Below are positions 3,539 to 19,413 of a stretch of 50,391 nucleotides of DNA, one piece after another. Within the stretch, counting starts at the first letter, position 1. Each line of letters starts with the position of its first letter. The position numbers and the translations under genes are program-made. The stretch is from Chloroflexota bacterium (lineage in GTDB: Bacteria; Chloroflexota; Anaerolineae; DUEN01): assembly GCA_013152435.1 (NCBI GenBank), contig JAADGJ010000049.1:1-50391 (forward strand), written 5' to 3'. The notes below the pieces were generated by a model. It was not told the origin of the DNA. It worked only from the letters and a program-made list of their open reading frames with translations, and did no database searches.

Positions 3539-5674
3539 TTAGCGGCTCCGGACGTAGATCTCTTCCGCCTCTACCTGAGAGGTTGAGAGTACACGTCCTT
3601 CCACTTTCGCCATCCTCCCCACAGCCGGCGTGCCCTCGATCTCGGTCTCATCCGTCACCATCACCGGGACGCCGCCGACGTTCCACAGGCCGATCACCCC
3701 GTCCTCAGGGAGGCTCAGGATCAGCCCCGCGAACTGCACCGTGGGCGGCTCGGGGGTATCGGTCGGCTCCGGAGTGGCGGTCGGTTGTGGCGTCTCGGTG
3801 GGCTCAGGAGTCTCCGTCGGTTCCGGAGTCTCTACTGGCCCAGGGGTCTCCGTGGGCTCAGGAGTCTCGGTCGGCTCCGGAGTCTCGCCCGGCCCAGGGG
3901 TCTCGGTGGGCTCGGGGGTCTCGGTAGGTTCCGGAGTCTCCGTGGGCTCTGGCGTCTCTGTCGGCATCGGAGTTCCCGTCGGCGCAGGCGTCGGCGTCTC
4001 GCCAGGCTCGGCGGACTCCGCCTGCACCTTCACGGCGACCAGGACGTCCCCCTGCTGGGTCGCGTAGATCTCGACCTCGACGCCCACCGCCGGCGTGCCT
4101 TCGATGGTGGCCGTGGGCGGGACCTGCACGGAGATGCCGCCGACCACCCACTGCTCACCGTCCATGCTGTAGATGGTGCCCTCGAGCTTCACCACGGTGG
4201 GATCGCCCACGCGGGCCAGGACCTTGATGTGTCGGGCGTGCAGCTCCCAGCCGCCCTCGACGGGAACGGACACCGCCTTCACGGCCACGCGGGCCCCGAT
4301 CTCAGCCGAGCCTTCGTCGGTGTCGATCCGGGTGAACGTATCCACCATGACCCGGATGCCCGAGATGAGCCAGCTCTCATCGCCCATCTCCTGGATGATC
4401 CCGGAGAACTTCACCCGATTCTCATCGGGGACCTCCGTGGGTCTGGGCGTTACCGTGGGCTCTGGGGTCGTTGTCGGTTGGGGCGTCGGCGCCTCATCGG
4501 ACTCCGAGATCTCGACCTTCACCGCGACCAGGGTGTCCCCCTGGAGCGTGGCGATGACCTCTACCCGATCGCCCACGCCCGGCGCATCCGCCGGCGTATC
4601 CTCGATGGTGGCCGTGGGCGGGACCTGCACGGGGATGCCGCCGACCACCCACTGCTCGCCGTCCATGCTGTAGATGGTGCCCTCGATCCCCACCACGGTA
4701 GGATCGCCCACGCGAGCCAGGACCTTAATGTGTCGGGCGTGCAGCTCCCAGCCGCCCTCAACGGGGACCACCCGAGCGTGGACGACCACGCGCACGCCCA
4801 CCTCCGCCGGGCCGCTGCGGGTGTCGATCCGGGTGGAGTCGTCCACCAGGACGGTGACGCTGGAGATCACCCATGTGCCGTCCGCCTGGCTCTGGATGAT
4901 GCCGGAGAACTCCACATCATCCTCATCGGGCTCAGGCCGGGGCGGCTTGACCACGATGCGCGTGGCCACCAGCGTTCCGTCGTCTCGCACGACCGCGTGT
5001 ACCTCCGCAACGGCGCCGACTTGCGGCTCGCCGACGATGATCGTCTCATTGGTGACGACGACCGCCCGGCCGCTGATCACCCATGAGCCCTCTCCGATGG
5101 ACTCGATGACCCCCTCGAACTCGATCTGCGCGGGGCGATCCGCGGTATCTTTCACCTCGATCTTGGTCGCCACAAGCTGTCCGTCACGGTATACGGCGTG
5201 GACCTCCGCCAGATCTCCCACGTCGGGGGTTCCCTCGATCACCGTCTCGTTGGTCACGAGGACCGGGACGCGGCCGATGATCCAGACGTCGCCGTTCATG
5301 GCTCGAATGATCCCGCGGAACTCGATCTCCTGAGGCGGTGGCGCCTTGTGGCGCACCCGGATGGCCTCGGCCAGCAGGTAGTCCGCGTTCTCACGCTCTC
5401 GGGCGATCACCTGGACGTAGTCCCCGCGGGCCGCCGGGCCGTTCACGATGCGCGTGTCCGCCGTGACCTCCACTTGTACTGGCCCGCGCCGCGTCTGGAT
5501 CGTCCAGACGCCCAGGCCGCCATCGGGCAATTCCTGTACGATTCCGGCAAACCTCACCCGGCGCTCCGCCGGTGGTTCTGTAGAGTCCGCCTGGGCACTG
5601 CCTACGATCCCGATCAACAGGACAATGATCAGGCTCATGATAAGTGTTGCTTTGAAACGTCGACGAGTCTTCAT
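3539..5674 (-). CDS. Secreted multi-domain DUF5666 protein with Pro/Thr/Glu linkers
   Basis: The 711-residue product begins at the ATG at 5674 behind AAGGAGGGTGG. It has a Sec signal peptide (basic start, then LIMSLIIVLLIGIVGSAQA). I count eight modules of 55-70 residues with a shared pattern: F-x-G-x-I, then W-x-I/V-x-G, V-x-V-T-x-x-T-x-I, and a C-terminal A-x-x-I-x-V. This is the OB-like DUF5666 module. Modules 4-5 and 6-7 are near-identical pairs, showing a recent internal duplication. Two linkers rich in ETPEPT units separate modules 5/6 and 7/8; the second is about 85 residues. No catalytic residues are evident. It is probably an extracellular or envelope-attached adhesion or matrix protein. 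Confidence 0.82.
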   Translation of the reverse strand: MKTRRRFKATLIMSLIIVLLIGIVGSAQADSTEPPAERRVRFAGIVQELPDGGLGVWTIQTRRGPVQVEVTADTRIVNGPAARGDYVQVIARERENADYLLAEAIRVRHKAPPPQEIEFRGIIRAMNGDVWIIGRVPVLVTNETVIEGTPDVGDLAEVHAVYRDGQLVATKIEVKDTADRPAQIEFEGVIESIGEGSWVISGRAVVVTNETIIVGEPQVGAVAEVHAVVRDDGTLVATRIVVKPPRPEPDEDDVEFSGIIQSQADGTWVISSVTVLVDDSTRIDTRSGPAEVGVRVVVHARVVPVEGGWELHARHIKVLARVGDPTVVGIEGTIYSMDGEQWVVGGIPVQVPPTATIEDTPADAPGVGDRVEVIATLQGDTLVAVKVEISESDEAPTPQPTTTPEPTVTPRPTEVPDENRVKFSGIIQEMGDESWLISGIRVMVDTFTRIDTDEGSAEIGARVAVKAVSVPVEGGWELHARHIKVLARVGDPTVVKLEGTIYSMDGEQWVVGGISVQVPPTATIEGTPAVGVEVEIYATQQGDVLVAVKVQAESAEPGETPTPAPTGTPMPTETPEPTETPEPTETPEPTETPGPGETPEPTETPEPTETPGPVETPEPTETPEPTETPQPTATPEPTDTPEPPTVQFAGLILSLPEDGVIGLWNVGGVPVMVTDETEIEGTPAVGRMAKVEGRVLSTSQVEAEEIYVRSR
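3756..3995 (-). repeat. 18-base minisatellite coding Glu-Thr-Pro-Glu-Pro-Thr units
   Basis: About a dozen imperfect 18-base units (and half units) run through the linker between modules 7 and 8 of the DUF5666 protein. Wobble positions differ between units while the encoded ETPEPT pattern is kept, which points to selection at the protein level on an array prone to length change. Confidence 0.8.
4087..4770 (-). repeat. Internal duplication within the DUF5666 gene
   Basis: The stretch around 4100-4260 and the stretch around 4612-4770 are almost identical, including the bases coding YSMDGEQWVVGG and GGWELHARHIKVLARV. The pair corresponds to protein modules 4-5 and 6-7 and is best explained by a recent tandem duplication. 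Limits are approximate. Confidence 0.75.
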
Positions 5675-6171: not shown

Positions 6172-6295
6172 AGAGTGTGTCTGAGAAATGCCGTCGCTTC
6201 TGCTATGGGGAGGATCCCTCCACACCTCCCCCTGTGGATCTGGTCGTTGAGGGAGTCCCTCAGACACCTTGCCGGTAAACTTTCAGACGCGCTTA
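6172..6295 (+). repeat. Terminal-inverted-repeat element, copy R1
   Basis: A 124-bp copy with left end AGAGTGTGTCTGA and right end TCAGACGCGCTTA, which are imperfect inverted repeats of each other. The interior (GGATCCCTCCACACCTCC followed by GTTGAGGGAGTCCCTCAGACAC) matches parts of the copies at 41.3 kb and 47.3 kb. No transposase is encoded, so it is MITE-like. Confidence 0.7.
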
Positions 6296-6365
6296 GCTTG
6301 CCATCCTCTTATCGGGATCTCGGATCGTTTCTGTGATTTTGAACAGTTTCCCGCTTTGGTTTGCA

Positions 6366-6394
6366 TTGACACCCATCTGGCGCCGTGATATAAT
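6366..6394 (+). promoter_or_regulatory. Consensus sigma-70 promoter
   Basis: TTGACA at 6366-6371 and TATAAT at 6389-6394 are both perfect and separated by exactly 17 bases. This is the best promoter match in the window. The predicted start is near 6401. Confidence 0.85.
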
Positions 6395-6400
6395 TTATAT

Positions 6401-6588
6401 GTCCCCTCGCACGGGATGCGCACGCACCCGTGCATATTATGCTTGGCTTCCACGATCCCAACCTGGGGCTGCAAACGAAGAAGTGGGGTATACGGATGTG
6501 GGTACCGCAGGATATCTTTACGCCCCAACTGGATAGACGAATCGCACCCGAAACGCAAAGGGAAGGATGATATACCCTTTGCGTTTTT
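6401..6588 (+). ncRNA. Candidate small RNA or attenuated 5' leader
   Basis: A transcript of about 188 bases would run from the consensus promoter to a strong intrinsic terminator. No open frame in it has a good ribosome site and recognisable protein. Local folds include GCACGGG/CCCGTGC near its 5' end and a possible alternative long-range pairing of CGGGATGCG with CGCACCCG near the 3' end, and TGGGG/CCCCA in the middle. Two mutually exclusive pairings of the same 5' segment are what a riboswitch or 6S-type RNA could show. The sugar ABC operon starts 123 bases after the terminator, so this may be its attenuator leader. It matches no RNA family I can recognise. Confidence 0.5.
6553..6588 (+). 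terminator. Intrinsic terminator of the candidate small RNA
   Basis: A perfect 10-bp stem ACGCAAAGGG / CCCTTTGCGT is followed directly by a run of six T. It is upstream of, not inside, the ABC operon's first gene. Confidence 0.85.
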
Positions 6589-6711
6589 TGGTTATTCGGG
6601 GATGGTCTTATCCCCTATCTTGGCGGGAGAGGAGGTGATGAGCAAGGGTACTTCAACAGGATCCTCTCGATAGTATCCGGCAATCACAGCATAGTGTAAG
6701 GAGGGAAAAAG

Positions 6712-8112
6712 ATGCTGGAGCGAAAGCTGAGTCGGCGGGACTTTCTGCGCGTCTCGGCTGTGACGGCTGTCGGATCTGCGCTGGCTGCCGCTTGTCAGCC
6801 AATGGCAGCTCCTCAAGCCGGTGAGCAGCCCAGTGCACCAGAAAAAGCCCCTCCCAAGCAGGTCGTGCTGACTCACACCTTCTGGGGAAGCCCGGAGGAG
6901 TGGAAGCTGTGGGTGGCGTTTGACGACCAGTTCAGCGCCGAGAACCCCGACATCACGGTCACATCTGAGCATATCCCCAGCAACTATGAGGAGCAGATCA
7001 TGCTCCGCCGGGCGGCCGGGGACATGCCCGACGTGCTGAACATCCAGGATGAGCCCTTCCCCAAGTACGCCGATAAGGGAGTCTACACGGCTCTGGATCC
7101 CCTGGTCGAGCGGGACAGCGAAGAGTTGATGCTCGACGACTTCTTCCCCCAGGTACTGGATATGTTCAAGTGGGATTCGGAGGCCAAGGCGTGGATGCAG
7201 GGCACCCAGTACGCCATGCCCTGGGACGGCGCGGGGATCCTGTGGTTCTACAACATCGACGTCTTCGAGGAAGCGGGGGTGGAGCCGCCGCCCAACCAGG
7301 GCTGGGACTGGACCATGGATGAGTTCCTGGACACGTGCCTGAAGCTCGTAAAGTTCGATGCTAACGGTAACATGGTCCGGGGTGCCTTCCCCTTGCCCGG
7401 GTGGGTATACCATATGCCATTCATCTACACCATGGGCGGCCGCTACGTGGACCTGGAGAAGAAGAAGTGCATGCTGAATACTCCTGAGTCCATCGAGGCG
7501 GTGCAGTTCTTCGTCGATCTGCGCCTCAAGCACCATGTGACCCCGCTCTCCACCGAGTTCTCCGGCATGGGCAGCACAGACCTCTTCCGGGAGGGCAAGA
7601 TCGCCATGAACCTGACCGGTCCGTGGTGGTTCCCCGATCTGCGGGCGATCCCGGAGGATGAGCTGCGCTGGGATGTGCTGCACTTCCCCAAGAACCCGGC
7701 GACCGGCGAGCGCTACACCCGCCAGAGCTGGGACGCGATGGCCATCGGCGAGGGCACCGAGAATGTGGAGGCTGCCTGGAGGTACATCAAGTTCGTTCTG
7801 GCCCCCGAAGGGCAGGCTCGCATCGCCCGGTTGGGTCGAGCCATGCCAGCACGACCCTCCGTGGCCAACTCCCCCGCCTTCTTGAACCCGGATCTGCCGC
7901 CCGCACACGAGGAGGTCTTCCTCAAAGCGGTGGAATACTACATCGTCCAGCCCATCAACCTGTACTGGAGCGAGATGTGGACCATCATCGGAAAGTACTG
8001 GGAGCAGATGGTGCTGGAGGATGTGCAGATGCCTGTGGCCGAGGCGGTGGAGAAGATCTGCGCCGGGGTGGACTATCTCTTCGAGAACGGGGAGATGCCG
8101 CCGGAATTCTAG
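6712..8112 (+). CDS. Extracellular sugar-binding lipoprotein, ABC transporter (family 1)
   Basis: The 466-residue product captures a carbohydrate outside the cell for the two permeases that follow. The N-terminus has a twin-arginine motif (SRRDFLRVSAV) and a lipobox-like LAAACQP with Cys28, so it is probably a Tat-exported lipoprotein. The rest fits solute-binding protein family 1: the TFWGSPEEWKLW opening, GDMPDVLNI, an FREGKIAMNLTGPWWFPDL hinge and a C-terminal helical region. The ATG at 6712 follows TAAGGAGGG. No ATPase gene is in the cluster, as is common where one shared MsmX/MalK-like ATPase serves several importers. The substrate cannot be told from sequence alone. Confidence 0.92.
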   Translation: MLERKLSRRDFLRVSAVTAVGSALAAACQPMAAPQAGEQPSAPEKAPPKQVVLTHTFWGSPEEWKLWVAFDDQFSAENPDITVTSEHIPSNYEEQIMLRRAAGDMPDVLNIQDEPFPKYADKGVYTALDPLVERDSEELMLDDFFPQVLDMFKWDSEAKAWMQGTQYAMPWDGAGILWFYNIDVFEEAGVEPPPNQGWDWTMDEFLDTCLKLVKFDANGNMVRGAFPLPGWVYHMPFIYTMGGRYVDLEKKKCMLNTPESIEAVQFFVDLRLKHHVTPLSTEFSGMGSTDLFREGKIAMNLTGPWWFPDLRAIPEDELRWDVLHFPKNPATGERYTRQSWDAMAIGEGTENVEAAWRYIKFVLAPEGQARIARLGRAMPARPSVANSPAFLNPDLPPAHEEVFLKAVEYYIVQPINLYWSEMWTIIGKYWEQMVLEDVQMPVAEAVEKICAGVDYLFENGEMPPEF

Positions 8113-8125
8113 CCTGCGTTGGGAT

Positions 8126-8163
8126 AGCGGCCATTGGGGGGCGATGTCTCCCCAATGGCCGCT
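8126..8163 (+). promoter_or_regulatory. Intergenic stem-loop between binding protein and permease
   Basis: A perfect 14-bp stem (AGCGGCCATTGGGG with its complement at 8150-8163) and a 10-base loop lies between the two genes with no T run after it. In sugar-transport operons such hairpins protect the upstream mRNA and lower permease expression; that role is inferred here. Confidence 0.7.
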
Positions 8164-8180
8164 CGGCATTGGAGGTCCTG

Positions 8181-9137
8181 ATGACTACTTTGGTTGATCG
8201 GTTGTTCCCTACCTCAAGCCGCCTGAGGCGACAGGAGGCGCTTACCGCGTATGCTCTTATCTCACCCTGGCTGATTGGGTTCATCTGGTTCACGGCCATC
8301 CCCATGGGGATCGCCATCTACCTGTCGCTCACCAAGTATCAGATCATCAGCCCGCCCGAGTGGGTAGGACTCTCAAATTTCACCAAGCTTTTCCAGGATC
8401 AACGCTTCCGGGTCGCGTTGTTCAACACGGCCTTCTACGCGGGTATCTCCGTGCCCCTGTACCTGGTCGCCTCCTTTGTGGCTGCGCTGGCCATGAACCT
8501 GAAGATCCGGGGCATCCGCTGGTATCGGACGATCTTCTACCTGCCGTCGATCACCCCGGCCGTGGCCAACGCGATGCTCTGGCTGTGGATCTTTAACCCT
8601 CAGTGGGGGTTGGCGAACTCGGTCCTGAAGTTCTTCGGCATCCCGACCCAGGATTGGCTGCTTGATCCCAAGCTCAGCAAGCCGTGTCTGATCTTCATGG
8701 GGTTGTGGGGGATCGGCCCTACCATGATCATTTTCCTGGCCGGCCTGCAGAACATACCCGAGCAGTTGTACGAGGCGGCGATGATCGATGGGGCGGGGCA
8801 ATGGGCGCGCTTCCGCAACGTCACGCTTCCCATGCTCTCCCCGGTGACCTTTTTCAACCTGATCATGGGCATCATCAACGCCTTCCAGATCTTCACTACC
8901 GCCTACATCATGACGACCGGCGGCGCGGGAGGCGAACGCTCTTATGGCGTAGGAGGGGTTCTGGATTCGCTGCTCTTCTACGTGTTGTACCTCTGGCAGA
9001 ACGCTTTTGAGTTCTGGCGGATGGGATACGCTGCTGCCATGGGATGGGTGTTGTTGTTCATCATTCTGGTTCTGACCTATATCCAGTTTAAGCTGGCAGA
9101 GCGCTGGGTCTACTACGAAACGGAACAGGGAGGATAG
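8181..9137 (+). CDS. Sugar ABC transporter permease (MalF/UgpA type)
   Basis: This 318-residue integral membrane protein has six predicted transmembrane segments and the binding-protein-dependent transport domain. The EAA loop is visible as EQLYEAAMIDGAGQWARFRN, the site that contacts the ATPase. The ATG at 8181 has GGAGG at 8171-8175; the frame is open further upstream inside the binding-protein gene but that part is not permease-like. It pairs with the MalG-type permease downstream to form the channel for the imported sugar. Confidence 0.93.
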   Translation: MTTLVDRLFPTSSRLRRQEALTAYALISPWLIGFIWFTAIPMGIAIYLSLTKYQIISPPEWVGLSNFTKLFQDQRFRVALFNTAFYAGISVPLYLVASFVAALAMNLKIRGIRWYRTIFYLPSITPAVANAMLWLWIFNPQWGLANSVLKFFGIPTQDWLLDPKLSKPCLIFMGLWGIGPTMIIFLAGLQNIPEQLYEAAMIDGAGQWARFRNVTLPMLSPVTFFNLIMGIINAFQIFTTAYIMTTGGAGGERSYGVGGVLDSLLFYVLYLWQNAFEFWRMGYAAAMGWVLLFIILVLTYIQFKLAERWVYYETEQGG

Positions 9138-9141
9138 AGGG

Positions 9142-10059
9142 ATGGTCACTGAGGCTGCCGCGGAAGCCAAAAGCGCAAGACGTGAGCAGGGATGGCTGGA
9201 TCGGATATGGACGGCGAAGACCAAAAGGGTGCTAAAGGAGCTGATTGCTCACCTGTGCCTGATCCCCATCTCGATCACGATGTTGATCCCGCTTCTCTGG
9301 CTGTTCAGCACCTCGCTCAAGCCAAAGGGGATGGTCTTCACCTATCCGCCCCAATTGATCCCCAATCCTGTGCGCTGGCAGAATTATCCAGAGGCTCTGA
9401 CCGTCTTGCCCTTTCACATCTTCTTCCGCAATACGATGATCATCGTCGTCGCCCGGGTGACCGGGCAGATCCTGGTCTCCACGATGGTGGCGTATGCCTT
9501 CGCCCGGTTGCGATTCCCGGGGCGGAACTTCCTCTTCTGGATGGTGCTGATCAAGATGATGCTCCCGGGCTCTGTGACGTTGGTGCCTGAGTACGTCATG
9601 TTCAACAAGCTCGGGTGGATCAATACGTTCCTCCCGCTGACCGTGCCCGCGTGGCTGCCAGGCTGGTATAGTTCCTCATTCTACATCTTCTTATGTCGGC
9701 AATTCTTTATGGGGATCCCAGCGGAATTAGACGACGCGGCCAAGATAGATGGGGCCAGTCATCTGCGCATCTGGTGGCAGATCATCCTCCCCCTGTCCAA
9801 ACCCGTGGTCACGACGGTGGGGATCTTCTCCTTCATGATCGCGTGGAACGACTTCATGGGTCCCTTGATCTATATCCAGAAGATGAACCTGCGCCCGCTG
9901 GCTCTGGGCCTGCAATCCTTCCAGGGAGCGTTCACCACGGAGTGGCACTGGCTGATGGCTGCCTCGACGACGATGGTCGTCCCGGTCATCTTCCTCTTCT
10001 TTGCGGCCCAGCGCTACTTCCTGCAGGGCATCACGATGAGCGGGATCACGGGAAGGTAA
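9142..10059 (+). CDS. Sugar ABC transporter permease (MalG/UgpE type)
   Basis: The 305-residue product has six transmembrane segments and the EAA loop AELDDAAKIDGASHLRIWWQ. The start lies four bases after the previous stop, with AGGATAGAGG as the ribosome site, so the two permeases are translationally linked. The C-terminal FAAQRYFLQGITMSGITGR is the usual end of this family. It forms the second half of the membrane channel for the sugar captured by the Tat lipoprotein. Confidence 0.94.
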   Translation: MVTEAAAEAKSARREQGWLDRIWTAKTKRVLKELIAHLCLIPISITMLIPLLWLFSTSLKPKGMVFTYPPQLIPNPVRWQNYPEALTVLPFHIFFRNTMIIVVARVTGQILVSTMVAYAFARLRFPGRNFLFWMVLIKMMLPGSVTLVPEYVMFNKLGWINTFLPLTVPAWLPGWYSSSFYIFLCRQFFMGIPAELDDAAKIDGASHLRIWWQIILPLSKPVVTTVGIFSFMIAWNDFMGPLIYIQKMNLRPLALGLQSFQGAFTTEWHWLMAASTTMVVPVIFLFFAAQRYFLQGITMSGITGR

Positions 10060-10134: not shown

Positions 10135-10183
10135 ATAGTTCATGCTCCCGATTCCCCCGATCTCATCCTGCGAGAGGGATTTC

Positions 10184-11674
10184 ATGCCCGACGTTTTGTA
10201 TATTCACCCGACCAAATACGGCATCGCGACCCGGGGGCGAAGGATCAGCACCCCATATCCCATCATGCCCATGGGGATCATCCCCCTATCGAACCTGCTG
10301 CGCGAGGAGGGGCTGTCGGTCGTCGGCTTGAACTACCCCCTGGAGCTTCGCATAGACCGTTCCTTCCTTCTGGGGCGATGGGTGGCCTCCCAGGAGGGGG
10401 TTCGGCTGATCCTGATGGACTTGCATTGGTACGAGCACTCCTATGGGGTGATGGAGATCGCTCAGATCTGCCGTCAGCTCCACCCGGAGGCATGGATCCT
10501 GGTGGGTGGGTTCACCGCGTCCCTGTACGCCAGGGAGATCCTCGAGAACTTCCCTCAGATCGACTTTGTGATCCGGGGGGATGCTGAGGTGCCGCTGCGC
10601 ATGATCGCCACGCGTTTGGGTCGCCGTTCCTCCGCGTTGCCGGACCTCTCGGACGTTCCCAACCTCTCCTACCGGGAGAGTGGCCGGATCGTGGAGAACG
10701 CCTTGACGTATCGCGCCGACGGGGAGATGCTCGACCGGCTGAACTTCGTGGACCTCGACTTCCTGGAGCACGCCGATCGATATGGCGAGCTTCAGTTCGT
10801 GGCGACCATGTTGACTGCCTCATCGCCCAGGCCGATGCGGGGGCACTGGCTGAGCATCGGCCGGGGATGTCACTTCGACTGTTCCTATTGCGGCGGGGGG
10901 GCGCGAGTGCACAAGGCCATCGCCGGCCGGGAGCAGCTCGTCCTCCGATCCGTGGAGGGTGTCGTGGAGGACATCCAGCGGCTGCAGCGGATGGGGGTCG
11001 ATCAAGTATCCTTCTCCCTGGATCCCGCCATCCTCGGCGAGGCGTACTGGACGCGCCTGTTCTCCGAGATCCGCAACCGGGGCATCCGGATCGGGATATA
11101 CAATGAGTTCTTCCAGCTTCCCAGCAAGGAGTTCATTGACGAGCTCGTGCAGACTGTGGACATCACTCGCTCGGAGCTGGCGTTTAGCCCCTTGTCCGGG
11201 TCGGAGCCGGTGCGCCGCCTCAACGGCAAGTTCTACACCAACCGAAAGCTGCTCCGGACGCTCTCGCTCTTGAAGAGACACGAGGTGCCCATCTACATCT
11301 ACTTCTCCCTCAATCTACCGGGCGAGGACGAGAGAGCCTTCAGGAGGACCCTGGACCTGGCCAGACGTATTGGGCATCTCTATCCCTCCCACCTGTTGAA
11401 GATGATCAACATGTGTCACACCGTCGATCCCTGCTCTCCCATGAGTCACGATTCCCGACAGTATGGCATCGAGGTGAGCTTCCAGAGCTTCATGGACTAT
11501 TACACCTACTGTCGCTCCGCCTCCACCGAGCAGTCCAGCCTGGATCAGGAGCAGTTTCGAGGCTTCTGGCTCCGTGATGATCAGAAGAGATCGCTGGAGG
11601 ACATGGCCAATCGGTGGGAGGCGTTCCGGGCGAATGCGAAGTTCCTCTGCTATCCTGTACCCCGTGCCTGGTAG
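10184..11674 (+). CDS. B12-binding-type radical SAM protein
   Basis: The 496-residue product opens with a cobalamin-binding-like Rossmann region (residues 1-150, with PYPIMPMGIIPLSNLLREEG and ILVGGFTASLY). A radical SAM domain follows, with the 4Fe-4S motif GRGCHFDCSYCGGG (Cys229, Cys233, Cys236). The DxHxxG cobalamin motif is not seen, so the N-terminal domain may bind B12 base-off differently or not at all. These proteins do methylations, ring contractions and other radical reactions; the substrate is unknown. ATG 10184 is preferred over an upstream frame extension because of GAGAGG just before it. It is followed after 14 bases by a uroporphyrinogen-decarboxylase-family gene, suggesting a joint pathway. 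Confidence 0.85.
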   Translation: MPDVLYIHPTKYGIATRGRRISTPYPIMPMGIIPLSNLLREEGLSVVGLNYPLELRIDRSFLLGRWVASQEGVRLILMDLHWYEHSYGVMEIAQICRQLHPEAWILVGGFTASLYAREILENFPQIDFVIRGDAEVPLRMIATRLGRRSSALPDLSDVPNLSYRESGRIVENALTYRADGEMLDRLNFVDLDFLEHADRYGELQFVATMLTASSPRPMRGHWLSIGRGCHFDCSYCGGGARVHKAIAGREQLVLRSVEGVVEDIQRLQRMGVDQVSFSLDPAILGEAYWTRLFSEIRNRGIRIGIYNEFFQLPSKEFIDELVQTVDITRSELAFSPLSGSEPVRRLNGKFYTNRKLLRTLSLLKRHEVPIYIYFSLNLPGEDERAFRRTLDLARRIGHLYPSHLLKMINMCHTVDPCSPMSHDSRQYGIEVSFQSFMDYYTYCRSASTEQSSLDQEQFRGFWLRDDQKRSLEDMANRWEAFRANAKFLCYPVPRAW

Positions 11675-17949: not shown

Positions 17950-17982
17950 TTGCGCGACAATAGCATAACTGGCTGGATGAAC

Positions 17983-18218
17983 GGCGCGAGAGAGAATCCC
18001 GTTTGCAAGGGATCGCCGAAGGGGCATGGTCGGACCTGGACCGGGGGGGCTGACGAAACTCTCAGGCAAAAGGATCGCGCCGGGACAGCACTCTGGAGAG
18101 TCGTCGCAGGCGGATCTGTGACGCACCGAAGGGGCTAACCCGTCACGTGACGGGGAATCTCTCAGGTACAGGACAGAGGGAGACCGGGTGGCACCCACTC
18201 GCGTCTCCCTTTTCGTTT
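17983..18218 (+). promoter_or_regulatory. Tandem glycine riboswitch with terminator platform
   Basis: Aptamer I runs from about 17983 to 18081, closed by GGCGCG/CGCGCC, with CGCCGAAGGGGC and ACTCTCAGGCAAAAGGA motifs. Aptamer II runs from about 18082 to 18178 with GCACCGAAGGGGCTAACC and ATCTCTCAGGTACAGGACAG. The expression platform is a stem AGGGAGAC (18177-18184) / GTCTCCCT (18203-18210) followed by TTTCGTTT. Glycine binding would compete with this terminator and switch the operon on. The tandem arrangement upstream of gcvT is the classic one. Confidence 0.96.
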
Positions 18219-18300: not shown

Positions 18301-19413
18301 ATGGCGGATCAGGCGCTGAAACGAACGCGGTTGTATGACTGGCATGTGCGGGCCGGAGCTCGCATGGTGGCGTTCGCCGGATGGGAGATGCCTGTACAGT
18401 ATCCCACAGGGCCCATCGAGGAGCACAAACGGGTACGCTCCTCGGCGGGCCTTTTCGATATCGATCACATGGGGCAATTCCGGATGAGCGGCCCGAATGC
18501 GGAGGCTTTCCTGCAGAGGATGCAGACGTGGGACGTAAGCCGGACGGCCGTTCACCAGGCCCACTATGGCCTGATGTGCTACGATGATGGCGGCGTCGTG
18601 GATGACGTCTTCCTCTACCATCTGCCGGATCACTGGCTCGTGGTCGTCAATGCCGCCAATCGGGAGAAGGATCTGGCCTGGTTGCAGGCGCATGTGGGAG
18701 ATGCCGACGTGACGTTGCGGGACGTCTCCGAGGAGACGTACATGATCGCCCTGCAGGGGCCGAAGGCCCAGGCGATCCTGCAGCGGGTGACGGATGTGGA
18801 TCTGAGCCAACTGCCGTTCCACGGCGTCATCGAGGGGACCGTGGCCGGAGTGCCGGCGGTCGTAGGGGCCACGGGATACACGGGCGAGTACGGTTATGAG
18901 CTCTTCTTCACGGCGGACGAGGCCGTACATGTGTGGGAGGCGCTGCTGGAGGCGGGGGAGCCGGACGGGCTCATCCCCTGCGGCCTGGCCGCCCGGGATA
19001 CCTTGCGGGCGGAGGCGTGCCTGCCCCTTTACGGGCACGAGATCCACTCCGAGATCGATCCGATCAGCGCCGGGCTGCGGTTTGCCGTGCGCTTCGACAA
19101 GGGGAATTTCCTGGGCCGGGATGCCCTGCTCAAGGTGCACCTGGAGGGGCCGGAATACCGGCTCGTCGCGTTCGAGATGGTGGAGAGGGGGGTGCCCCGG
19201 CAGGGATATGAGGTGGTGGCCAACGGCATATCCGTGGGAGAGGTGACTACCGGCCTGTACAGTCCCACCACCGATCGGTATGTGGGGATGGCCTATGTGC
19301 CGACGGAATTTGCGGCTGTCGGGACCGAGCTGTCCATCATCATCCGGGATCGACCCCGTGCCGCCCGGGTGGTACGTCGGCCGTTCTACGTGCCCGCCTA
19401 TCGAAGAAGATAA
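18301..19413 (+). CDS. gcvT: Glycine cleavage system T protein (aminomethyltransferase)
   Basis: The 370-residue T protein transfers the methylene carbon from the aminomethyl-lipoyl arm of the H protein to tetrahydrofolate and releases ammonia. Family motifs are plain: [56 protein letters not shown] and [20 protein letters not shown]. Length and domain order are normal. It is the first gene behind the tandem glycine riboswitch and should be induced by glycine. Confidence 0.97.

Follow-up and report, generated by a model that had tools for sequence, protein, structure and literature searches.

A consensus promoter and an early intrinsic terminator ahead of a Chloroflexota ABC transporter operon: a candidate attenuated leader with a STAB-SD-like site

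Leaders with premature termination in the 5' UTR have been described in Escherichia coli, and the terminated RNAs that they yield accumulate (Adams et al. 2021, PMC7815308). The locus described here has the same layout, namely, a promoter, a long untranslated leader, a 3' end within that leader, and a short RNA beside a read-through mRNA, all of which are predicted here from the sequence. Unlike in the E. coli leaders, no sensor, upstream ORF, or binding factor was identified. The second system to be compared is the STAB-SD of cry3A in Bacillus thuringiensis, a non-initiating Shine-Dalgarno sequence in the leader (Agaisse and Lereclus 1996, as presented in PMC4113751), where bound 30S subunits keep RNase J1 from degrading the mRNA from its 5' end (PMC4113751). 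As in cry3A, an extra, non-initiating Shine-Dalgarno sequence was found in the 5' UTR approximately 80–130 nt before the start codon, with the promoter at a distance. However, the sites found here occur in dozens of solute-binding protein (SBP) leaders of another lineage, and many copies have long complementarity (GGAAAGGAGGTGA). The leader also resembles T-box leaders (RF00230) in length, in its terminator, and in a T-box-like word, ATGTGGGTACCGCA, at 6496, but this match was weak (10 of 14 positions) and had no supporting structure; moreover, the leader has no Rfam match and no antiterminator, and a transporter operon lies downstream. The resemblance to 6S RNA (RF00013) is in size only.

The window analyzed was the whole 50,391-nt stretch of contig JAADGJ010000049.1 (assembly GCA_013152435.1), and the features of the leader and its operon are all on the forward strand. 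A first-pass annotation had proposed a perfect promoter and a strong terminator with no gene between them. The promoter, a consensus sigma-70-type TTGACA-N17-TATAAT, was indeed an exact match at 6366–6394 (12 of 12 positions, a 17-nt spacer, and an extended −10 with TG ahead of the hexamer). No second exact match exists in the window, and 100 shuffles gave none. Genome-wide, 47 exact consensus promoters with 16–18-nt spacers were counted, compared with none for a reversed-pattern control; thus, this consensus is in use by the organism. The spacing of the promoter places the transcription start at approximately 6401. With this start, the RNA ending at the terminator would be approximately 188 nt long, in agreement with the length proposed earlier. 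The terminator lies at 6551–6589 and consists of a perfect 12-bp stem with fully complementary arms (6551–6562 and 6575–6586), a 12-nt loop, and a run of six T (6584–6589). It had been placed approximately 160 bases from the promoter with a 10-bp stem plus six T; the terminator itself was upheld (folding z −5.5, with 0 of 200 shuffles equally stable), and its stem length was corrected to 12 bp. A comparable terminator occurred in none of 600 Markov sequences of intergenic-region size, counted on one strand. Both the promoter and the terminator are therefore far above chance.

The operon had been described as a sugar ABC operon just downstream, and this position was borne out by the annotation of the genes. 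The first gene (6712–8112) encodes an extracellular SBP (SBP_bac_1, E 2.9e-32) with a twin-arginine/lipoprotein-like signal, and it is preceded by a genuine Shine-Dalgarno sequence, AAGGAGG, at 6700–6706 (GGAGG at −12). Two ABC transporter permease genes (both BPD_transp_1) follow at 8154–9137 and 9142–10059. Directly 3' of the operon, a B12-binding radical SAM protein is encoded at 10142–11674 on the forward strand, which is related to TIGR04190 (E 8.6e-64) and scores below the cut-off of that model. On the other side, a large exported protein with six DUF5666 repeats and a threonine/proline/glutamate-rich stretch (TPEPTETPEP) is encoded divergently from the leader at 3539–5674 on the reverse strand. 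Between this gene and the promoter, a MITE-like dispersed repeat was found at 6172–6298, which ends approximately 70 nt ahead of the promoter and has terminal inverted repeats of approximately 15 bp (GAGTGTGTCTGAG... / ...CAGACGCGCTC-like). The genome holds dozens of copies (60 matching stretches), most of which carry approximately 130 nt extra in the middle, and a few occur in a genome of the same genus.

The reading that we hold to be probable, if by a narrow measure, is that 6366–6711 comprises the promoter and an approximately 310-nt 5' leader of the SBP/permease operon (6712–10059), with an early terminator that serves as an attenuator. RNA polymerase would start at approximately 6401, and a part of the transcripts, probably most, would end at the intrinsic terminator approximately 185 nt on, leaving the ~188-nt RNA as a by-product. 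The read-through fraction would then pass a non-initiating Shine-Dalgarno site at 6630–6640 and enter the operon. The elements of an attenuated leader are all present, namely, a promoter, an untranslated leader, a terminator, and a same-strand gene without a promoter of its own, the last being judged by consensus matching only: between 6589 and 6712, no promoter with at least 9 of 12 consensus positions was found. The reading is based on this absence, on the STAB-SD-like site, and on a promoter position that is common to other SBP operons. It presumes that the promoter drives the ABC operon and that termination at 6551–6589 is incomplete, both of which we infer. The first of these points has a weakness, as the operon could depend on an unrecognized promoter downstream of 6589, which is conceivable because most SBP genes in this genome have no recognizable promoter. 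The second has another, as the terminator is strong and nothing competes with it, so that read-through may be too low for the operon.

The shared promoter position was determined from the 47 exact promoters, using fetched genome stretches (SBP_bac_1 loci and promoter loci), on which all gene counts rest. Four of them precede SBP_bac_1 genes by 240–370 nt, compared with approximately 0.09 expected by chance for 41 such genes (41 genes × 450 nt × 47 sites over both strands of 4.97 Mb). The distances to the called starts were 346 nt in the window, 367 nt on contig C24, 254 nt on C47, and 241 nt on C61, where the start call is doubtful. Exact promoters were also found upstream of two further exported SBP-like genes (L185 on C12 and L219 on C133). 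Strong promoters at the head of long leaders are thus a recurring trait of SBP genes in this genome. In a genome of the same family (G002), a 33-nt promoter match, CATTGACACCCCTCTGGGGTGGTGGTATAATTT, is identical to the promoter region of the window at 28 of 33 positions and lies approximately 460 nt ahead of a gene whose product has a twin-arginine/lipoprotein-like signal; judged from its sequence, this product resembles a peptide-binding protein, with an N-terminus very similar to that encoded at L185. A comparable terminator was absent from the three other SBP operons with a distant promoter (C24, C47, and C61), and none was found in approximately 40 other SBP leaders of this genome or in 30 from relatives. 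Accordingly, the arrangement with a terminator is not a family trait.

Promoter–terminator order was also observed before other kinds of genes. Among the exact promoters examined, and leaving out a tRNA locus, five others had an intrinsic terminator between the promoter and the next open frame (L183, L186, L209, L214, and L222). L209 is a T-box leader, an established family, and the gene behind it reads as a valyl-tRNA synthetase from its N-terminus, so the order of promoter, terminator, and gene can mean a regulated leader in this organism. The leaders at L183, L186, L214, and L222 had no Rfam match. By N-terminal sequence only, L214 precedes a DEAD-box-helicase-like gene and L222 an IF-1-like gene.

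How the terminator might be controlled was evaluated from the folding of the leader. Two alternative pairings of the 5' segment had been proposed, and both exist: a local one between GCACGGG (6409) and CCCGTGC (6427), and a distal one formed by CGCACCCG at 6423 and 6543. The local pairing belongs to a hairpin, GCACGGGATGC/GCACCCGTGC, at 6409–6433, approximately 8 nt from the inferred 5' end, which folds at −18 kcal/mol (z −3.98; none of 200 shuffles reached this stability). When the two were compared, the local hairpin was more stable (−19.9 versus −12.8 kcal/mol). The distal partner (6543–6550) ends just ahead of the terminator arm at 6551; therefore, it cannot act as an antiterminator, and either pairing leaves the terminator intact. 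Exact complementarity of at least 7 nt is found in 41% of shuffles, and an antiterminator formed by alternative pairing was rejected. In all longer folds, the terminator arms paired with a probability of approximately 1, and in leaders cut short of the 3' arm, the 5' arm was only loosely held; no alternative structure occupying this arm, as an antiterminator would, appeared in the leader folds. The leader body (6434–6550) showed neither excess structure nor convincing coding potential. Since 6401–6550 folded no better than its shuffles (z 0.16), a compact aptamer is not indicated.

Two further explanations were considered. A riboswitch of an undescribed kind, binding a ligand to control sugar uptake, would suit the terminator within the leader and the position before a transporter operon, but the z of 0.16, the missing alternative to the terminator, and the lack of conservation and of an Rfam match make it scarcely credible. 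A small protein gene (43–58 aa), or a leader peptide, translation of which would open the terminator, was proposed for the open frame at 6394–6570, as its 58 codons end at a stop inside the terminator loop, where a terminating ribosome would lie over the 5' arm of the stem. However, no Shine-Dalgarno sequence precedes any start codon in the frame, the coding score of 6439–6567 was matched by 17% of off-frame open stretches, the frame stayed open in 8.7% of shuffles, and neither a family match nor a convincing relative was found. This explanation is very improbable, and, in line with the earlier view, no convincing gene lies between the promoter and the terminator. For the attenuated leader, no RNA switch being visible, conditional control, if any, must be trans-acting; alternatively, the terminator would simply damp expression from a very strong promoter.

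The main rival to the leader is an independent, trans-acting small RNA gene of approximately 188 nt, with the ABC operon served by an unrecognized promoter downstream of the terminator. The locus, having a consensus promoter, an efficient-looking terminator, and no antiterminator, would be a complete transcription unit, and the strong 5' hairpin would stabilize the RNA. Membership in a known family was evaluated with the Rfam covariance models (4227 families), and 6300–6720 had no match at E ≤ 10, including riboswitches and the T-box. The lack of a known riboswitch consensus, stated in the first-pass annotation, therefore also held in this search, in which 6S was included. In contrast, the suggestion that an RNA of this size might be 6S was rejected: RF00013 had no match in 6300–6720, and the 6S RNA of this genome lies on another contig (G000:C70:22006-22182, 82 bits). 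6S was above the cut-off in 34 of 41 related genomes. In the whole window, Rfam matched only two glycine aptamers and one tRNA; the aptamers form a tandem glycine riboswitch at 17977–18180, upstream of an aminomethyltransferase-like gene (18301–19413).

Conserved sequence or structure of the ~188-nt RNA was also not found in relatives. A BLAST search of 298 genomes of the class, including the same genus, returned no DNA relative but only short words. Those at 6442–6472, which recur in many genomes of the class, mostly lay within unrelated open frames, with no constant frame or strand, and were set aside as chance words. The one exception among the short matches was the promoter match in G002. 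A covariance model built from the single sequence gave, across 60 genomes, a best hit outside the window of only E 0.28, which is noise. As for the operon, the SBP of the window has only 32–35% identical paralogs in the same genus and family, the closest orthologs (43–44% identical) are in one genome of a different family (G061), and the regions upstream of these orthologs had no match to the leader. As the window SBP has no close ortholog, the missing conservation is only weak evidence against a leader; against a housekeeping small RNA it weighs more. A small RNA of recent origin or rapid evolution would give the same picture; with the missing relatives and the unremarkable folding counted against it, a stand-alone small RNA is a real possibility, though rather an unlikely one.

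The same lack of conservation in the genus would also suit a promoter and a terminator that were left over after the loss of a small gene, or carried next to the operon by a rearrangement, and that now serve at most for insulation. The MITE-like repeat approximately 70 nt upstream suggests that the intergenic region has been reshaped, and no SBP ortholog exists in the same family. However, neither the two hexamers nor the 12-bp stem has a single mismatch, a state that would be lost in a decaying unit, and the position of the promoter agrees with that in other SBP operons. A leftover of this kind is therefore unlikely. Overall, of the earlier suggestion of a small RNA or a riboswitch-like leader, the attenuator or leader part was the better supported, by the shared promoter position, the lack of a promoter match between terminator and gene, and the STAB-SD-like site, while the riboswitch part was dropped for want of an Rfam match, excess folding, and a competing structure.

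Past the terminator, the read-through part of the leader (6590–6629) runs to AGGAGGTGATG at 6630–6640, a STAB-SD-like match to the 16S 3' end approximately 80 nt upstream of the start codon of the SBP gene. No start codon lies at a usable spacing from this site. The 16S 3' end used for the matching is the generally known one, which we take to hold for this genome in place of its own. A site was counted when it matched the complement of this end exactly over at least 8 nt. Among 35 SBP leaders of this genome with acceptable start calls, 17 had an extra site at −160 to −60, compared with 1 of 35 at −360 to −200. In three relatives, the corresponding counts were 10 of 30 and 2 of 30. Extra sites were found in 3 of 74 cytosolic-looking genes, which is a fair baseline, versus 16 of 37 lipobox genes, a figure that is inflated by loci picked for SBP genes or for the motif.

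The sequence AAAGGAGGTGA occurs 20 times in the genome, approximately 12 times at 79–205 nt before genes of exported proteins, mostly binding proteins, and about four times at the normal Shine-Dalgarno distance. In the 24 leaders listed, a start codon 4–11 nt downstream was missing from nearly all copies, which makes them unlike ribosome-binding sites of small frames. The full-length anti-Shine-Dalgarno match, GGAAAGGAGGTGA, was found 75–140 nt before the start codons of SBP and other exported-protein genes, for example, in leaders L101, L106, L112, L114, L115, L117, and L231 of this genome (G000) and L160, L164, L172, L178, and L179 of relatives. Moreover, a site 85 nt before the gene of a secreted multiheme cytochrome-like protein with several CxxCH motifs (L132, on G000:C9) indicates that the extra site is not confined to binding proteins. 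By analogy with STAB-SD, the extra site would bind 30S subunits and protect the mRNA.

A single leader with an early terminator is ordinary in kind, and the site shared by SBP leaders is the more interesting result. We tentatively propose, as a possibility still to be doubted, that SBP operons in this family share a leader design consisting of a distant consensus promoter, a long UTR, and a putative mRNA-stabilizing 30S docking site, GGAAAGGAGGTGA, 75–130 nt upstream; to this, the operon in the window would add a terminator, with read-through setting the amount of mRNA and the docking site its lifetime. The analysis exposes a shared feature of transporter leaders, present before almost half of the SBP genes, in a lineage with little RNA biology. 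If these sites are STAB-SD-like, a 5' mRNA stabilizer best known from Bacillus would extend to another lineage and to a whole class of genes.
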